A stretch of DNA of 64,000 bases. It comes from Tetraselmis striata. Taxonomy: Eukaryota; Chlorophyta; Chlorodendrophyceae; Chlorodendrales; Chlorodendraceae. How positions within the stretch are numbered: the first letter of the stretch is position 1; every line of letters begins with the position of its first letter. Of this stretch, positions 22,269 through 32,925 are shown one piece after another. The notes below the pieces were generated by a model that made no database searches, was not told the DNA's origin, and saw nothing but the letters and a program-made list of their open reading frames with translations. Made by a program: the position numbers and the translations under genes. The stretch is taken from NCBI GenBank assembly GCA_006384855.1, contig VCJN01001728.1, positions 124,001 through 188,000 of the forward strand. Reading direction: 5' to 3'.

Positions 22269-22273
22269 CCATT

Positions 22274-22779
22274 TGTCGGAGGGAGATTGTCGAAGTGATG
22301 GCTGAGTAGCGCCGTCACTGATGGAAAGAGAGTCGGCGAGAGTCGGCGTGCATGCGTCGAATCACGTCGAGTGCCAGCAAGCGAGATGCAAACTGGGAAG
22401 GCGAAGGGCTGCTATGAGCCGTGGGCGATGGACGAAAGGTAGTCGCTGTCGCCGTGGTGATGGCTGAGTGGCACTGTCACGAGAGAGAAAGGGCGAGTCG
22501 GAATATTTCTGGAAAAGCAGTTGACTGAATTACAAGGAGCCAAGGCTAGCAATTTATACCAGCCGGCTAGGTGTCAATTAGGACGGACACCTCTCCGTCT
22601 AAGAAGGCCAACTGGCAAAGACGCCTAGGTGCCATGCTTTGGTAACAACTGGGTGCCGTACTCCTGCCATACGGTCTAAATTAGGCACATGAACGGCAGC
22701 TGAGTTGTTCACTGGAAAAATGCGGATTTCACAAAGAGAAAAAGCGGATTCAGGGTACCGGGGTACCCTGGGTCCAACA
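22274..22779 (-). repeat. Left LTR (3' LTR of the element)
   Basis: The sequence is nearly identical to 26,720-27,224 and in the same orientation. Ends read TGTCGG...CCAACA on the plus strand, i.e. TGTTGG...CCGACA on the coding strand. Confidence 0.92.
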
Positions 22780-22793
22780 CCCCTCCTCATCCT
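22780..22793 (-). promoter_or_regulatory. Polypurine tract of the LTR element
   Basis: On the coding (minus) strand GGATGAGGAGGGG directly precedes the 3' LTR terminal TG. This is the position and base composition expected of the plus-strand primer. Confidence 0.75.
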
Positions 22794-22884: not shown

Positions 22885-23200
22885 GGTAGTCAGAGGCAGC
22901 GCTTTGGCGAAGAAGTCGGCCAGGTGGGCCGGGGTAGGCGTGTAGTACATGTAGATGATGCCGTCTTGGTAGAGTTGGACCGCATACTGAAATTGGAGGT
23001 CAACGTGGCGTTCCGCGCCTATAACTATACCATGTTGCACCTGAACGATGCATGCGCGGTTGTCCCCGCATATTTGCACCGGGGCAGCAGTGGGGTGGCT
23101 GAGCTTGGCGCAGAAGAACGTGAATAACCGCCAGACATGTGCAGACCACGCAGAGCGCCACGAACTCCGCTGCGGCAGTAAACATGGCCAAGATGCCTCC
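22885..23200 (-). pseudogene. Copia RNase H remnant
   Basis: The frame near 23,075-22,885 reads CGDNRACIVQVQHG and then ERHVDLQFQYAVQLYQDG and PTPAHLADFFAKALP. These match the copia RNase H end ('CDN..A', 'KHID..YHF', 'PTxxQLADxFTKxL'). An upstream piece, FTAAAEFVALC (near 23,187-23,155), corresponds to 'STAEAEYIAL' but is in another frame, so the domain is frameshifted. Confidence 0.8.
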
Positions 23201-23335
23201 GAACCTGCGCACGGTAGGTGACTGCAGTGTTATGAAAGTTGGTATTCAACGTGCAGGGCAGGCGGCGAGGATTGCTCTCCGTCATGTGAAAGGTAGTCAG
23301 AATGTCAATGATGCAGGTTTCCCGATGAAGATGGA

Positions 23336-24253
23336 TCACGCCGTCCGGTGCGGAGCCGATGAAGTCGAAGTCACGTAGAAAGGAAGTAAAGCACAGAAAC
23401 CATGCCTTGGGTGCCTGCCGCAGATCGTAGAGTGCCTCAACGGGGTTCCAACCCGGTCCTTACGGCCACAGCCGGGGGAGAGGTAGTCATAGGTATCTGC
23501 ATTTCGGTCGGCGTTGAGGAAAACACAGCGGACGTCGAACTGGTAGAGCTCCCAGGTGAGTTGAACCGTGATAGCAATGGTGGTGCGCAAGGCGACGAAG
23601 TGAACGACTGGGGCATAGGTCTTGGCGTCATTATAGGTCTCGCCGGTGGTGAGTAGATTGCCGCGGACGATCACGCCGGCCTCGCGCTTGATGATGTTGC
23701 CATCTTTGTGCTGCGCCGTGAAGGACCACGCCATCTGTTGGATGACCGCGGACTCGTTGTTGCGTCGAAGCCCAGGGACGTTGACCCAGACGAAAAGTGC
23801 CATCGTGGTGATAGAGTTGATCTCGTGGTTCATGGATGTCTTCCAGTCATCGGGGCGAGTGCTGCAGATGTCCTCCTCATAGGTGCGCGGCGCCGTGGAC
23901 ACGCGGACAGTGGGTGCCGGTAAGGCGAGGGCTGTCAGCCGCGCTGAGTGGGGGCGCACAACCGCCGCGATCGCGGATGCCACCAGTGTTGGGTGGTAGT
24001 CGCTGAGGTCGACATAATGGGAAGGTAGTTGTGCATGTTTGATGTTGTGAGGAGCCGACAGTGCCGTGGCGTCCCCCTCCTGACGGTGCGGAGGGTGCTG
24101 CTCGTTGTGATGTGGAGATGGGGGCCCCTCATGTGCCGAAGCAAGCGCCGCTGATGGCAGCCGGGGTGGCGGTGCGTGGGGCCCCTCCTGCTGGCCCGAG
24201 GGTTGAAACTCGTCCATCAGGTAGTCAGCGTTGGAGAACTGAAAGGCCGGCAT
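23336..24253 (-). pseudogene. Copia reverse transcriptase fragment (RVT_2)
   Basis: The fragment of about 305 codons has a proline-rich linker and then the start of the copia RT. It shows RPDDWKTSMNHEINSI, W-F-T-A-Q-H-K-D-G-N-I spacing, GETYNDAKTYAPVVHF, and the motif A equivalent LYQFDVRCVFLNAD with its catalytic Asp. After YDYLSPG the similarity stops and the frame ends, before the YVDD box. It is therefore a truncated, inactive RT. Confidence 0.85.
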
Positions 24254-24396
24254 AGGGAGAGGCGAGGTCGTGCGCCCGGCAACCGGGTTGTAGATGGTGT
24301 AGCCACTGAAGGGGCCGGGGTCGGCGAGCTTGAAGGCGGCGACGTTAGTTGTTACTTGACGCAGTTCCGGATGTCATGCGGTTGAGTGATAACGGT

Positions 24397-24921
24397 TCAC
24401 AGAAGGGTGTCGCGGTGAGTCGCCGATTCGCAGGACGCCGTGCGCACGATGTTGCATGCGCCAAGTGAGGAGAGTACTTTAGGTAAGGCCAGCGCGTCTG
24501 GAAAATTCTGCACAATATAGCGCACTGGTGTGGGCTGAGAAGACAGGTAGAAGCGGATGAAATTGATGTTGGAGGAGAAGGCACGAGAGCGATGGTCCTG
24601 CCAGTCAAGGCGTGAGCCCGTGCGTGACCATGGTTGACACTGTGTGCTTGACACGACGAGGGTGAACGGGCGCAGCCGCTCCAGCTCCGTGATGGTGATG
24701 TCGTTGATGTTCATTGGGGTCCCGTCGTGATAGTCCTGAAATGCTGATGGAGGCAGGCGGCCCGGGTATTCGTTGCTGATGACCTATAGGTGATGTGGCC
24801 ACATAGTGCGAGCCTCCGTTGATGGGTCGGCGCCGATGAACGCGTGGATGGAGAAGCCGTATTCCACCACAGCCTCCACCTCAAATGCCGGTGGGCCATG
24901 CCAGGGCGAGAAGAGATGCTC
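24397..24921 (-). pseudogene. C5-cytosine DNA methyltransferase fragment inside the copia element
   Basis: One frame of about 174 codons, broken by a single TAG at 24,786-24,784, shows the DNMT motif order. It has a motif I-like start (LFSPWHGPPAFEVEAVVEYG), an acidic motif II-like GADPSTEAR, and motif IV-like LVVSSTQCQPWSRTG, which keeps the Cys of the PCQ loop although Pro is replaced by Gln. These are followed by DWQDHRSRAF, a motif VI-like YIVQNFPD in place of 'ENV', and a late RTASCESATHRDTLL resembling motif VIII. In intact C5-MTases the PCQ Cys attacks cytosine C6. The changed PCQ and ENV residues and the stop indicate decay. It lies between gag and RT on the coding strand, where copia elements carry protease and integrase. 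Target-recognition and C-terminal motifs IX-X were not found. Confidence 0.7.
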
Positions 24922-24923
24922 GA

Positions 24924-26564
24924 TTACCAAAGAAGAGCTTGGCATATGGAGGAGTGGGGCAGCGGTGAGTATCGGGAGCGGCGGTGGCAGGCCTCCACGT
25001 AGGGCGCCCTGCCCCGTATGAACGTCGTGGGCCGCAAGTGCCGCTGAGGTTGGGAATGCGGGTGAAGCGAGGCATAGAGGTTGAATTGGGGTGGGAATGG
25101 GTTGAGAGCGGAAGTGGCGGGCACGCCATGGGTGTGAGAACGGGAACTGATTGTCGTCAGAGTTGAAGTAGGGGACAGGGGTTCATGTAATTCATCGTCT
25201 TCGTCGTCCTCGCTTTCCCCCTCCTGCGCTCCGGTGGCTGCCCCTCCTGGGGCGGTGGTGGTGCAGGTGAGCATGACGGGCAGGCCGCTGTGGTGTGGTG
25301 CCAACGAGGACACACCCATTACCGGGTAGGCCTCATGGCCTCCTGTCGGCTGCTTGTCGGAGTCGTTGTTGGCCGGGTGATGTCCGTGGTGGTGATGTCC
25401 GGCCGGGGAGACGAAGCCGAATGGCTGGTGATGGCGTCGCATGTCGTCGTTGTCGCTCTGGGTGGGCCAATATTGCAGCCGCTGAGGCCTATTTTGATGT
25501 TTGTAGTCGTTGCGCAGGTTGTGGGTATAGTTGTCGTTGACGTGACGCTCCGCAGGCGCGCGGTGACAGTTACCATAGCTAGGGTTGTTCATGGTGCTGG
25601 GTGGGGCGGTGTCACCCAGGAGACGCAGGCCGTTGGCATGGCGCCTGGCCAAACACTGCTGCTGAGCATGGCATGGACGGTCACACCTGCTGCAGACGAT
25701 GTTGGGCCTGGTGGCATATAGTTCGTCCCTGGGGTCACAGGAATTGAGGGTTGGCGTGCGGGAACGGGCGCGCTGCTGACGCTGACGCGTGCGCGCCTCC
25801 ATGTTCTGTCCGGCACTTATGGTGGTTGCCAGCCTTTTGTTGACATTGGTTGCCGAGATGGTGGCGTCGACAATGTGATCGTATGCTGGGTGAAGTCCTG
25901 GGATGAGGTAGTTGATGGCCACGTACTCGAATGTCCACTGACCATGTGCCTTGCGCAACAAATGCCAGAGGTTCCGGCAGCGGCGAACGTACACCTGGAC
26001 CGGCTCATTCGGGAGCTGGCCTGCTGTGATTTCTTCCTCCAAGCGCATGCGCTCCTCTATGGCAGATCCCTGGAGTTCAGTAAATAGGGCCGTCCATGCC
26101 GCATATCCACACTTCTTGGAGTCCATGATGATGCTGCCGACGATGGCCAGTGCCATGGGATAATTCGCTGTCGCGTGGCGCAGGGCTGCCAGAAGAATGA
26201 GCTGCTCCTGGTGGGTGCCTTTGCCCTTGGTGGTGTCCAGGTAGCCGGCGCTGCCGAGGGAGATCTTGATGGCCTGAGCATTATCACGCGTAGAGATGTT
26301 ATGGTCCCACACGGGGACCGTCGCGAGGTCGAGTGTCGGCTTCACTGTAGACGGCTTGATCCACTGGATGTCACTGGAGTCACTGTCTGACGCACCGTGT
26401 GGGCTGAAAGCGCCTTCAGAACTGGTATCACTGTCACTAAAGTCAGGCGGCGGTGGGTCGCTGCCAGGGTCCTTCTTGACCGCACTCCTCCCAGCTAGAT
26501 TAGGCAGAGGGGTATTCATCATGCCGGTGGCGATGCTGGTAGACATGGTGGAAGGATGGCGCAC
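24924..26564 (-). CDS. Copia gag polyprotein with CCHC zinc knuckle
   Basis: A single open frame of 546 codons. The N-terminal third is acidic and proline-rich (DPPPPDFSDSDTSSEG). The middle holds a helical capsid-like region (LAALRHATANYPMALAIV, then EEITAGQLPNEPVQVYVRR). A zinc knuckle CSRCDRPCHAQQQC follows, matching CX2CX4HX4C, and the C-terminal part is low-complexity and rich in His, Pro and Ser. Gag packages the element RNA in cytoplasmic particles. The frame starts 155 bp inside the 5' LTR end. It overlaps the start of the methyltransferase fragment in another frame, so the two may once have been one polyprotein. Confidence 0.85.
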   Translation of the reverse strand: MRHPSTMSTSIATGMMNTPLPNLAGRSAVKKDPGSDPPPPDFSDSDTSSEGAFSPHGASDSDSSDIQWIKPSTVKPTLDLATVPVWDHNISTRDNAQAIKISLGSAGYLDTTKGKGTHQEQLILLAALRHATANYPMALAIVGSIIMDSKKCGYAAWTALFTELQGSAIEERMRLEEEITAGQLPNEPVQVYVRRCRNLWHLLRKAHGQWTFEYVAINYLIPGLHPAYDHIVDATISATNVNKRLATTISAGQNMEARTRQRQQRARSRTPTLNSCDPRDELYATRPNIVCSRCDRPCHAQQQCLARRHANGLRLLGDTAPPSTMNNPSYGNCHRAPAERHVNDNYTHNLRNDYKHQNRPQRLQYWPTQSDNDDMRRHHQPFGFVSPAGHHHHGHHPANNDSDKQPTGGHEAYPVMGVSSLAPHHSGLPVMLTCTTTAPGGAATGAQEGESEDDEDDELHEPLSPTSTLTTISSRSHTHGVPATSALNPFPPQFNLYASLHPHSQPQRHLRPTTFIRGRAPYVEACHRRSRYSPLPHSSICQALLW

Positions 26565-26719: not shown

Positions 26720-27224
26720 TGTCGGAGGAAGATTGTCGAAGTGATGGCTGAGTGGCCCTGTCACTGATGGAAAGAGAGTCGGCGAGTGTCGGCGTGCATG
26801 CGTGGAATCACGTCGAGTGCCAGCAAGCGAGATGCAAACTGGGAAGGCGAAGGGCTGCTATGAGCCGTGGGCGATGGACGAAAGGTAGTCGCTGTCGCCG
26901 TGGTGATGGCTGAGTGGCACTGTCACGAGAGAGAAAGGGCGAGTCGGAATATTTCTGGAAAAGCAGTTGACTGAATTACAAGGAGCCAAGGCTAGCAATT
27001 TATACCAGCCCGCTAGGTGTCAATTAGGACGGACACCTCTCCGTCTAAGAAGGCCAACTCGCAAAGATGCCTAGTTGCCATGCTTTGGTAACAACTGGGT
27101 GCCGTACTCCTGCCATACGGTCTAAATTAGGCACATGTACGGCAGCTAGTTGTTCACTGGAAAAATGCGGATTTCACAGAGAGAAAAAGCGGATTCAGGG
27201 TACCGGGGTACCCTGGGTCCAACA
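26720..27224 (-). repeat. Right LTR (5' LTR of the element)
   Basis: Direct repeat of 22,274-22,779. On the coding strand the sequence after this LTR (revcomp of about 26,690-26,719) shows no obvious match to a common tRNA 3' end, so the primer-binding site was not assigned. Confidence 0.92.
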
Positions 27225-27734
27225 CCAGTAATCTTTACTACGAGTACGCACAACAACAGCAGGTTGACGAGCAGAGGTAAGGCCTTACCGATTTGATGTT
27301 CCGGTTTAGGTCACAGATCTGGGGAATATCGGAGGGAAGGGAAGGGGGGAAGCGGGGGATGTATTGTAAGTCGGCTTTCAACATACATTGCGCAGTATTG
27401 GGAATTGCCCCATGGCGGTTGGTCTACTCTGCACTACACCACCCGTAGCCAATAGAGGGTTTACTGCACAATCATCAACGTTGGCGGCCGCAACTGCAAT
27501 GCGCGCCGCCATTCTCAGTCACCCAGCCCCCGCTACCGCTGTCCTCAACCTCTCAACATGTGAGACCCGAACTTGTTACTACTGTGAATGTCGCCCTAGG
27601 CGATGGCAAAAGCCAGTCGAAGACCCTACCTGGATTGTGGCCCAACACGTAGACATATTCTTGTGTGGATTGCAGGCACTTGACATAGGCCATATCCTTG
27701 GCTGCGAGGATGTCTTCATGTGCGAGGGGAGGGG

Positions 27735-28899: not shown

Positions 28900-30240
28900 C
28901 GCAGACCCCGGGGCCTATGAGTCTATCGCCGACCTCAGAGATTGGGTTCGTCGCAACTACATGCTACCTCCGAACTCTGCTGACAGCGACGCGGCGTTGG
29001 GGCGAGATGTCGGCGCAGGCGGCGGTGCGGGCTTCGCGTCCCGAGATGAGGGCTCCTTAGGCGGAGATGCGGGTCGGGGAGGCGGAGATGGGGCACCGCC
29101 ACGGGAAGATGTGGCCGTGCGACTCCCACCAGCGGCACCCGAAGGCGCCTGACAGCTTGACGTGGCTTCGCGTTTCGGCTTAGGCGCCTAAAAGGGGTCG
29201 TCGTCCTCCAACTCTTTCGCCATCGTTAAAGGAGGACTCGGCCCGCGCTTCTTGGAATGCTTCCTACGCAGCTTCATGGGCGACAAGGTGCTCTCGCCTC
29301 CCGTGCTCAACGCACCGTGCGGGCGCTTCGTCGCACTCGAAGGCTGAGGCTCACTCGGCGGCTTGGCAGTCTCCGAGGGACCAAGCCTGCTCGGGGGAGG
29401 GGGCGGAGCTGCTCGAAGCACCAAGAGATCTGCTGCAGCGCCGTTTTGGGAGCCATCTCCGCCGGACCCCGCTGGCGGTGGTTGAGATGCGGGCTTGGAG
29501 GACCCGCCAGCCTGACGCGGCGCCGCTACGACTTAGTAGAAGCGGTCGTCGACCAAGATGGTGGGGGGTAGAGAGCCGGTTGGGCAGGGCCGGCAGGTGT
29601 TGGTGGACTTCGTGAAGCGTTGGTTCTTGATCTGTTGAACGCCGCGCCGCATCTCGTTGTCGCTGTGCCATTCGCGCACGCTGCGAATCGAGTAGCCACA
29701 GTCTTTCACAGTCTTATTGCTCTAGCACTCCACGAATAGGACGGACTCCACGGTATGTTGCCAAGATGCCTCCGGCCAGGCTCCCTGGCTGCCATTGGAG
29801 TCTTGGAGTGCGCGCTTGCGGTCATCGTACGCGTGCTCGTTGACAGGGTCAGGGAGCGCACGCACTCACAGCTTCCGAACTCCACTTACAACAGTGTGCG
29901 AGAGTACTTTGGTTGGCATTATGTCGAGAGCCGACGCAATCTTGTTCGCGTCTGTCTCGGAGAAGTCAAAGTGTCTCACAGTTTGCGCCACGTTGCCCAC
30001 CATAAAGCAGTAGACTTTGAGGTCAAAGGGAAGAACTTGATGGGGAATCTCATGAGCTTCGTGGGCCAGTCTGTGCAATCTGTGGGCAATTGTGACCGTG
30101 CAATCTTCCGGAGGCGGAGAAACCTGACCTTGTGAATGGAGACAATCCATGCCTCCTTGCACACATGCGGGATGCCGGTCGACGTTCAGACATTGATTGC
30201 TACAACGATGCACTGTAAATGCTGCCTTTAGGCAGGCTAT
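28900..30240 (-). other. Unrecognised minus-strand ORF cluster
   Basis: Minus-strand frames at 30,213-29,866 (MHRCSNQCLNVDRHPACVQG, later LPFDLKVYCFMVGNVAQTV and ETDANKIASALDIMPT) and 29,424-29,188 (proline- and lysine-rich, possible nuclear basic stretch LRRKHSKKRG) look partly protein-like. I could not connect them with confident splice sites or match a family. They may be exons of one gene or element also represented at 33-36 kb. Confidence 0.25.
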
Positions 30241-32925
30241 AACAGCCTAATAGATGGCTGCCAACCTTTCAGGATGCCGATTTATATGGCAAAAAGGGAA
30301 TTTAATTGCGCACATGCCTTACAATACTATACAGATTGCAAGGCAGTACCGCTAATACATTATATTTGTTGGCGGCACGCCGCAGATCGCTGCAGCGCTG
30401 CACCGCAGATGCCGCCTTTAGGCATGCTTTAACTGCCTAGATGGCTGCAAACCATTTAGTATGCGGGGTTGCATGGCATAGAAGGGATGCGAACACGCAC
30501 CGGCTTGACGATACTAAACAGATTGCAAGGCAGTACCGCCAATACATGATATTTGTTGGCGGCACGCCGCAGATTGCTGCAGCGCTGCACCGCAGATGCA
30601 TGCCGCCTTTAGGCATGCGTAAACTGCATAGATGACTGCAAACCATTTAGTATGCGGGGTTGCATGGCATAGAAGGGATGCGAACACGCACCGGCTTGAC
30701 GATACTGAACAGATTGCAAGGCCGTACCGCTAATACCTGATATTTGCTTGCGGCACACCGCAGATTGCTGCAGCGCTGCACCGCAAATGCTGCCTTTAGG
30801 CATGCTTTAACTGCCTAGATGGCTGCAAACCATTTGGTATGCGGGGTTGCATGGCATAGAAGGGATGTGAACACGCACCGGCTTGACGATACTATACGGA
30901 TTGCAAGGCCGTACCGCTAATACATGATATTTGTTGGCTGCACGCCGCAGATTGCTGCAGCGCTGCACCGCAGATGCTGCCTTTAGGCATGCTTTCAGTG
31001 CATAGATGGCTGCAAACCATTTAGTATGCGGGGTTGCATGGCATAGAAGGGATGTGAACACGCACCGGCTTGACGATACTATACGGATTGCAAGGCAGTA
31101 CCGCCAATACATAATAATTGCTGGCGGCACGCCGCAGATTGCTGCAGCGCTGCACCGCAGATGCTGCCTTTAGGCATGCTTTCAGTGCATAGATGGCTGC
31201 AAACCATTTAGAATGCGGGGTTGCATGGCATAGAAGGGATGTGAACACGCACCGGCTTGACGATACTATACGGATTGCAAGGCAGTACCGCCAATACATG
31301 ATAATTGCTGGCGGCACGCCGCAGATCGCTGCAGCGCTGCACCGCAGATGCTGCCTTTAAGCATGCTTTCAGTGCATAGATGGCTGCAAACCATTTAGTA
31401 TGCGGGGTTGCATGGCATAGAAGGGATGTGAACACGCACCGGCTTGACGATACTATACGGATTGCAAGGCAGTACCGCCAATACATGATAATTGCTGGCG
31501 GCACGCCGCAGATTGCTGCAGCGCTGCACCGCAGATGCATGCCGCCTTTAGGCATGCTTTCAGTGCATAGATGGCTGCAAACCATTTAGTATGCGGGGTT
31601 GCATGGCATAGAAGGGATGCGAACACGCACCGGCTTGACGATACTATACGGATTGCAAGGCAGTACCGCCAATACATGATATTTGTTGGCGGCACGCCGC
31701 AAATCGCTGCAGCGCTGCACCGCAGATGCTGCCTTTAGGCATGCTTTAACTGCCTAGATGGCTGCAAACCATTTAGTATGCGGGGTTGCATGGCATAGAA
31801 GGGATGTGAACACGCACCGGCTTGACGATACTAAACAGATTGCAAGGCAGTACCGCCAATACATGATAATTGTTGGCGGCACGCCGCAGATCGCTGCAGC
31901 GCTGCACCGCATATGCATGCCGCCTATAGGCATGCTTTAACTGCCTAGATGGCTGCAAACCATTTAATATGCGGGGTTGCATGGCATAGAAGGGATGCGA
32001 ACACGCACCGGCTTGACGATACTATACGGATTGCAAGGCAGTACCGCCAATACATGATAATTGTTGGCGGCACGCCGCAGATTGCTGCAGCGCTGCACCG
32101 CAGATGCTGCCTTTAGGCATGCTTTAACTGCCTAGATGGCTGCAAACCATTTAGTATGCGGGGTTGCATGGCATAGAAGGGATGTGAACACGCACCGGCT
32201 TGACGATACTAAACAGATTGCAAGGCCGTACCGCTAATACCTGATATTTGTTGGCGGCACGCCGCAGATTGCTGCAGCGCTGCACCGCAGATGCTGCCTT
32301 TAGGCATGCTTTAACTGCCTAGATGGCTGCAAACCATTTAGTATGCGGGGTTGCATGGCATAGAAGGGATGTGAACACGCACCGGCTTGACGATACTAAA
32401 CAGATTGCAAGGCAGTACCGCCAATACATGATATTTGTTGGCGGCACGCCGCAGATTGCTGCAGCGCTGCACCGCAGATGCTGCCTTTAGGCATGCTTTA
32501 ACTGCCTAGATGGCTGCAAACCATTTGGTATGCGGGGTTGCATGGCATAGAAGGGATGTGAACACGCACCGGCTTGACGATACTAAACAGATTGCAAGGC
32601 CGTACCGCCAATACATAATAATTGCTGGCGGCACGCCGCAGATCGCTGCAGCGCTGCACCGCAGATGCCGCCTTTAGGCATGCTTTAACTGCCTAGATGG
32701 CTGCAAACCATTTAGAATGCGGGGTTGCATGGCATAGAAGGGATGTGAACAGGCACCGGCTTGACGATAGATACTATACGGATTGCAAGGCAGTACCGCC
32801 AATACATGATATTTGTTGGCGGCACGCCGCAGATTGCTGCAGCGCTGCATCGCAGATGCTGCCTTAAGGCATGCTTTAACTGCATAAATGGCTGCAAACC
32901 ATTTAGTATGCGGGGTTGCATGAAT
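30240..32925. repeat. 187-bp satellite array, about 15 units
   Basis: The landmark GGCTGC(A/C)AACC (one unit reads GACTGC) occurs at 30,255, 30,443, 30,634, 30,821, 31,008, 31,195, 31,382, 31,573, 31,760, 31,951, 32,138, 32,325, 32,512, 32,699 and 32,890. Spacings are 187 bp, sometimes 191 (once 188). Most 191-bp units are explained by an extra 4 bases in GCAGATGCATGCCGCC versus GCAGATGCTGCC. Each unit contains the palindrome TGCAGCGCTGCA. The first unit is the most diverged, and the last is cut where unrelated GC-rich DNA begins. Short open frames on both strands are by-products of the repeat. Confidence 0.95.

Follow-up and report, generated by a model that had tools for sequence, protein, structure and literature searches.

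A decayed Copia derivative in Tetraselmis striata and its methyltransferase-encoding relatives

The window under study, a stretch of 64,000 nucleotides (C1398:124001-188000 of a Tetraselmis striata assembly of 224 Mb in 2903 contigs), contains a Copia retrotransposon in which part of a C5 DNA methyltransferase (DNMT) lies between Gag and reverse transcriptase (RT), in agreement with the original prediction made from this DNA. Relatives of the element in the same genome encode the DNMT within a single open Gag-Pol frame, and the window copy is a decayed, non-autonomous derivative of such a DNMT-encoding Copia; in the explanation that we regard as probable, the parental enzyme would methylate the cDNA of the element. 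The host had been described as being of chlorophyte type, and T. striata is indeed a core chlorophyte of the class Chlorodendrophyceae.

The window element and its deletion family

The element lies on the minus strand and is bounded by a pair of LTRs, as had been anticipated (Table 1). Its assignment to Copia follows from the RT pieces, which match RVT_2; a Pfam scan of the window copy gave no integrase match. DNA homologous to its Gag region is present in copies of the L017 type, one of the intact relatives considered below. The DNMT fragment had been placed at 24397..24921, a segment that does fall inside the DNMT homology, the homologous DNA being nevertheless wider than proposed. Taken alone, the fragment scores E = 3.6e-4 and 20.5 bits against PF00145, just below the Pfam cut-off of 22, whereas most of the intact relatives scanned lie above it. 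When compared with the DNMT domain of L017 it gives 67% identity over residues 5-198 with E = 1.6e-83, a similarity which is thus far beyond chance. The copy is decayed, as stated originally, with two in-frame stops in the DNMT (one TGA and one TAG) and not the single one then counted. Motifs I, IV, VI and VIII are degenerate, the C-terminal half is absent and the catalytic Glu of ENV is replaced by Gln; the altered PCQ and ENV that had been pointed out are real and common to the derivative copies examined. The original prediction did not include the absence of the protease region and of the integrase, which corresponds to a deletion that begins at residue ~909 of L017 and extends to 1460 in the protein alignment, or to ~1492 in the DNA alignment. 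Elsewhere in the window, positions 30195-32922 hold a tandem array with a unit of 187 bp (14.5 copies, 93% matches).

Table 1. Coordinates of the parts of the Copia element, as positions within the window
Feature	Position	Strand	Remarks
3' LTR	22274..22781	-	97.4% identity with 26720-27226 over 508 columns; + strand start TGTCGGAG
5' LTR	26720..27224	-	BLAST pair reaches 27226; TG..CA boundary at 27224
Left flank CCATT, possible target-site duplication	22269..22273	.	4 of 5 bases equal to right flank
Right flank CCAGT, partner of left-flank CCATT	27225..27229	.	
Gag open frame, 546 aa, weak CCHC zinc-knuckle match	24924..26564	-	zf-CCHC_5 E = 0.044, below cut-off
N-terminal part of DNMT	24310..25104	-	DNA homologous to L017-type copies
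Deletion junction	24260..24309	-	DNMT C-terminal half, protease region and integrase gone
RT fragment, first piece	23336..24373	-	RVT_2 E = 8.3e-9, above cut-off
RT fragment, second piece, other frame	23028..23459	-	RVT_2 E = 5.8e-4, below cut-off

This structure is not peculiar to the window. Using the DNA of the DNMT/RT junction as a query we obtained 40 scored matches of 208 candidates, the window included, of which 38 cover the query to within one base and two stop at position 1138 of 1205; the 39 matches besides the window are 91-96% identical, so that the derivative family comprises at least 40 copies. A chance nested insertion of a DNMT pseudogene is ruled out by the recurrence of the junction in these 39 other copies. 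The C-terminal half of the DNMT, the protease region and the integrase were lost in one shared deletion. At the protein level, 40 of 126 matches end at DNMT residues 211-213, with 60-72% identity, and nine of these 40 have a frame of 1203-1237 aa with no stop; copies L072-L074 keep Gag, half of the DNMT and an eroded RT in one frame. The derivative frame of the window copy has four stops (two of them before the Gag methionine), that of L031 two, and those of L032 and L033 three each. Where the 3' LTR would stand, these last two copies also have ~600 bp in common that are unlike the LTR of the window copy, which suggests a chimeric or nested structure.

In seven derivative copies, that of the window among them, the Glu of ENV is replaced by Gln in every case, and three of the seven have also lost the catalytic Cys. 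Within the family, dN/dS (21 non-independent pairs) is highest in the DNMT fragment (0.78) and in RT (0.75), lower in the linker (0.62) and lowest in Gag (0.52). In the seven copies examined the DNMT looks dead, and the claim that the window copy is a DNMT carrier holds with the qualification that it belongs to a non-autonomous deletion derivative, whose enzyme appears to be catalytically inactive. The accompanying suggestion of self-methylation would be relevant to the intact relatives only.

Parental elements with an open methyltransferase frame

A PF00145 profile search of the genome, in which 123 of 337 candidates were scored, gave at least 123 matches, many of them inside frames of 1000-3505 aa; the window copy is absent among these 123. 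Intact Gag-DNMT-Pol frames, which the original prediction had proposed to look for, were found in several subfamilies. The parental Copia elements consist of a single open frame of up to 2483 aa with Gag, DNMT, protease region, integrase and RT. In L009, L014, L018 and L030 the order of Pfam domains is CCHC zinc knuckle, DNA_methylase, Pol_BBD, gag_pre-integrs, rve, SH3_retrovirus and RVT_2, and the same order is seen in L017, without zinc-knuckle and Pol_BBD matches, and in L029, without zinc-knuckle and rve matches. The protease region is putative, Pol_BBD being located at the position expected for a Copia protease, and the C-terminal RNase H region is likewise expected from its position, with no Pfam match. 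Integrase precedes RT in L009, L014, L017, L018 and L030 (rve being below cut-off in the first three), which together with paired LTRs and short target-site duplications places the parents among Copia elements. The DNMT matches PF00145 with 45.8 bits in L009, 41.7 in L014, 39.7 in the RT-less L023, 36.8 in L017, 34.5 in L018 and 28.5 in L029, and with 18.7 bits, below the curated cut-off of 22, in L030. At least five subfamilies are distinguished (L009, L018, L030, L017 and L029), the DNMT of the others being 31-51% identical to that of L009. The catalytic Cys of motif IV and Glu of motif VI are kept in all 21 open Copia copies examined, as well as in the LINE-like L019; a T. striata gene model, P0128, represents a further divergent type with GNV instead of ENV.

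These elements are numerous. With the L009 DNMT as query, at least 71 of 127 matches span 290 or more of the 321 residues, and of these at least 60 are free of stops and at least 20 belong to frames of 2000 aa or longer. The L017 DNMT gave 126 matches, including at least 29 near-full-length copies at 84% identity or above, 21 of the 29 without stop. LTR pairs of 411-516 bp, 98.7-100% identical, were present in 18 of 20 fetched loci, eight of them at 100%; L013 had only a long internal repeat and L019 no LTR pair. L029 and L030 were retrieved with cut ends, and LTR identity is 97.2% in the former (143 bp) and 100% in the latter (253 bp). Of the 17 testable copies, parental or RT-less, 16 are flanked by perfect 5-bp target duplications, a count that leaves out L012, L029 and L030. 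They were seen in all five L017-type copies, with ends searched over a small range and without control, and in 11 of 12 L009/L018-type copies, versus 0 of 192 shifted controls. In the L009/L018 type the LTR ends read TCTAGA, TCAAGA or TCAAAA, an end motif chosen after inspecting the flanks, and no duplications are found when TG..CA ends are required.

Besides the family of the window, a second set of derivatives has lost RT. The frames of L023-L026 (1767-1806 aa) contain Gag, DNMT and an integrase region; L023, L025 and L026 have no RVT_2 match in Pfam, and L024 and L026 share the same deletion, of L009 residues ~1625-2118, which leaves the frame open. Their LTRs are 99.4-100% identical and three of the four have perfect duplications, which argues that they moved as RT-less copies, presumably mobilised in trans. 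Both the parental elements and this RT-less family have moved recently.

The DNMT of the parents also evolves under constraint. For L009 against L013, L023, L024 and L025 (of a 90-92%-identical type) its dN/dS is 0.21-0.23, in four comparisons that are not independent, all sharing L009 and three having RT-less partners; in the same comparisons the linker just before the DNMT gives 0.63-0.71 and Gag 0.12-0.16. Values of 0.25 and 0.28 were obtained for L009 versus L018 and L030, with dS near saturation, of 0.42 and 0.40 versus L014 and L015, and of 0.08 for L017 versus L020 (8 synonymous and 2 other changes), while the closest pairs are noisy, L009 and L010 giving 1.01 from four changes. Pooled pN/pS of the DNMT is 0.43 within six RT-bearing copies, L027 having contributed no segment, and 0.22 between the RT-bearing and RT-less groups; within three RT-less copies it is 0.91, near neutral (10 synonymous and 27 other changes). 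At the level of coding sequence, the analysis shows a parental DNMT with an intact predicted catalytic core under purifying selection, and the presence of this domain in frame within the polyprotein of multi-copy elements makes them DNMT-encoding retrotransposons. The DNMT segment of L024 is more diverged from L009 than is Gag (dS ~0.19 vs 0.06), and no sharp cassette boundary was seen in the L024 versus L009 divergence profile along the frame; this pattern suggests that mosaic copies exist. Similarity between L009-type and L024-type elements is likewise mosaic along the frame.

Relatives and origin of the methyltransferase

Once T. striata sequences and P0025, P0027 and P0029 are set aside, a search with the DNMT profile gave matches of E = 4.7e-10 or weaker among the best 120 of 312. 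Outside T. striata, ENA contigs encode P0005 (2106 aa) and P0127 (1943 aa), in which the Copia domains extend from Gag to RVT_2, as well as P0129 (1186 aa), a shorter frame that ends in integrase; the DNMT is recognised by Pfam in P0005 and P0129, and in P0127 only by the DNMT profile, with E = 2e-83 in a small set. A Gypsy-type polyprotein, P0130 (2172 aa, on a 13,090 bp contig, source jgi), combines a PHD finger with a divergent DNMT below the Pfam cut-off. The Copia DNMT is also related to that of LINE-like elements in the same genome. The T. striata element L019 (C2687:15500-25400, with a 3505-aa frame) and, outside that genome, P0006 have RVT_1 and RNase_H, a PCIF1_WW match and a DNMT, the latter being positioned after RT in L019, where the PCIF1_WW/DNMT part takes up residues 1248-1389 and 1594-1670 of the retrieved sequence; the L019 DNMT has five matches on four contigs, at 92-100% identity.

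In the DNMT tree a branch sets the sequences of all retroelements apart from bacterial DNMTs and L007, a weak separation (bootstrap 50, SH-aLRT 93), L007 being the only one of six other T. striata DNMT loci that the motif filter kept. The LINE-like group forms a single clade (99/98) of four rows, two of them isolated fragments, and the deep Copia, LINE and Gypsy branches have no resolved order. The pol and DNMT trees agree on the L009-L018-L030 and P0005-P0127 groupings, so that here the DNMT travelled with its element. In the pol tree, under midpoint rooting, the L038 family, the one DNMT-less family included, is placed between the L017/L029 types and the others.

The PCN of motif IV is diagnostic of the DNMT3 family. 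Seven aligned DNMT domains, drawn from five Copia types, have PPCQP, PPCAP or PCCEP at this position and lack that trait, DNMT3A reading SPCND; the DNMT profile matches DNMT2 chains (6fdf, E = 4.1e-8). A structure predicted for P0129, the first row of 6 sequences, had a mean pLDDT of 41.6, and a second prediction, for P0007 with 61 rows, concerned the catalytic core only, P0007 matching the DNMT profile to position 266 of 319.

Two sources of the domain were considered. A recent capture of another T. striata DNMT is unsupported, as the ORFs of seven other DNMT loci are remote (best BLASTP E ~1e-4); some DNMT genes of the genome, matching in pieces and perhaps intron-split, may still conceal an origin from the host. 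An IMG/VR scan with the DNMT alignment gave 33 loci, with a best E = 3e-7 and 27-38% identity, which correspond to generic DNMTs. Other DNMT loci of the genome have features of their own. Six intronless full-length DNMT ORFs of 325 aa (L001-L006, on C1993, C776, C1647, C2337, C355 and C1455) each adjoin an ORF of 330-377 aa, two of which were scanned without Pfam match. L007 (C2385:456294-456905) is a DNMT ORF of 327 aa beside an ORF with Rpb1 domains, possibly a virus-derived insertion. A Copia with a 1561-aa frame is repeated on C440, C776, C805, C1230, C1303, C1435, C1776 and C2881, in possible heterochromatic or centromeric arrays, several copies of this type thus lying on the same contig, C776, as one of the 325-aa ORFs.

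Possible roles and known systems

Cytosine methylation is a main defence of hosts against transposons, and in the present case retrotransposons themselves carry the gene for an enzyme of the type by which hosts silence them. In the explanation that we consider probable, the parental DNMT would be packaged, together with RT and integrase, into the Gag particle and would methylate cytosines of the element cDNA, or of the RNA-DNA hybrid, before or during integration; this methylation could disguise or protect the new copy, and derivatives would be mobilised in trans by the parental proteins, needing no working DNMT of their own. Several observations count against this scheme, among them the near-neutral DNMT of the three RT-less copies and the GNV of gene model P0128. 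CpG observed/expected ratios are 0.74-0.96 in the elements against 0.88 in the window, a comparison made without a matched DNMT-less control, so that there is no clear mark of self-methylation. Further, the Copia with the 1561-aa frame, in which one copy examined (L038) has no DNMT, is common in the same genome, and the DNMT is therefore not required for Copia success there.

The substrate of the enzyme could also be RNA. Dnmt2-type enzymes methylate RNA, and a DNMT acting on the element RNA or on the tRNA primer would aid RNA stability or priming rather than mark DNA; the match to DNMT2 chains and the joining of the DNMT in one polyprotein with a Gag zinc knuckle are in line with this alternative, as is the suggestion of RNA methylation for SymbioLINE in the sections of de Mendoza et al. 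2018 (PMC5890265) considered here, and we nonetheless deem it unlikely. The same sections discuss the option that a DNMT restrains its element, which by self-methylation would keep a low copy number and be selected because the host is spared. The spread of derivatives with altered catalytic residues to at least 40 copies would fit such a restraint, but families with an intact DNMT also have many open, young copies and selection on a mobile element through host benefit is indirect, which makes this quite improbable.

A different question is whether the fragment in the window has any role, and here we find it rather likely that it is a passenger without function, a neutral remnant retained by its position within a deletion derivative whose spread had other causes. 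The replaced catalytic Glu and the higher dN/dS of the fragment compared with Gag speak for this reading, whereas the nine derivative copies that retain a long open frame speak against it, although their recency may explain the open frames; for the window copy alone we accept it as the likeliest. Finally, an assembly in so many contigs might raise the suspicion that the DNMT-Copia is a contaminant or an artefact and not algal. Four Tetstr1 (JGI) gene models, among six hits, match the DNMT region with 98, 99, 98 and 93% identity (the three at 98-99% cover all of the region, the one at 93% covers 88% of it). The copies are moreover scattered over many contigs, where their flanks differ and their 5-bp duplications match, so that this possibility is barely credible.

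Particle-borne marking of element cDNA by the parental DNMT may have a wider setting. We propose tentatively, as a possibility that we do not favour, that a retroelement-specific DNMT module circulates among Copia, LINE-like (with a PCIF1-type domain) and Gypsy elements, both inside one algal genome and among other organisms, in each case marking the cDNA of its element. Since a LINE-like element of T. striata has a related DNMT, the exchange of domains between classes of retroelements can be put to the test, and young DNMT-Copia, DNMT-less Copia, and RT-less and dead-DNMT derivatives within one genome are natural controls for the role of the enzyme.

De Mendoza et al. 2018 (PMC5890265) report DNMT in LINE and DIRS elements of Symbiodinium and in a Gypsy of Klebsormidium, and Symbiodinium Copia elements are there described as being without any DNMT domain. 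Sarre et al. 2025 (PMC12344493) state that certain members of DNMT3 reside within retrotransposons, among them 'LTR Copia and DIRS families'; in the part considered, this single mention of Copia cites de Mendoza 2018 for streptophytes and dinoflagellates, whose LTR element is a Gypsy, and no chlorophyte Copia with DNMT is described in that part. A 2019 article (PMC6338049) lists green algae among the hosts of retrotransposons that encode adenine or cytosine methylases, naming in the portion at hand only Ty3/Gypsy and DIRS clades as carriers, not Copia. Within the open-licence papers searched, we found no published chlorophyte Copia-DNMT, DNMT-bearing LINE, DIRS and Gypsy elements being already published.

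SymbioDIRS-Dnmt3 and SymbioLINE-Dnmt of dinoflagellates resemble the T. striata elements in being multi-copy retroelement families with conserved DNMT catalytic residues, and the SymbioDIRS enzymes perform de novo CG methylation in yeast (PMC5890265), which makes DNMT activity plausible in the Tetraselmis Copia. They belong, however, to the DIRS and LINE orders, whereas the T. striata parents have a Copia backbone; also, the SymbioLINE DNMT is mostly found in an ORF upstream of the RT ORF, unlike the LINE-like element of T. striata, where it follows RT and is accompanied by a PCIF1_WW match. There is also a likeness to KnitGypsy-Dnmt3 of the charophyte Klebsormidium nitens (PMC5890265), an LTR retrotransposon of the green lineage whose Pol polyprotein includes a C5 DNMT with its key residues conserved and under purifying selection (Ka/Ks < 0.2). 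KnitGypsy-Dnmt3 is nevertheless a Gypsy assigned to Dnmt3, whereas the Tetraselmis element, from a chlorophyte, is a Copia with a motif IV that is not DNMT3A-like and with the DNMT placed after Gag and before the protease region. To the cytosine-enzyme retrotransposons of the literature considered, dinoflagellate LINE and DIRS and charophyte Gypsy, the present analysis thus adds a chlorophyte Copia.
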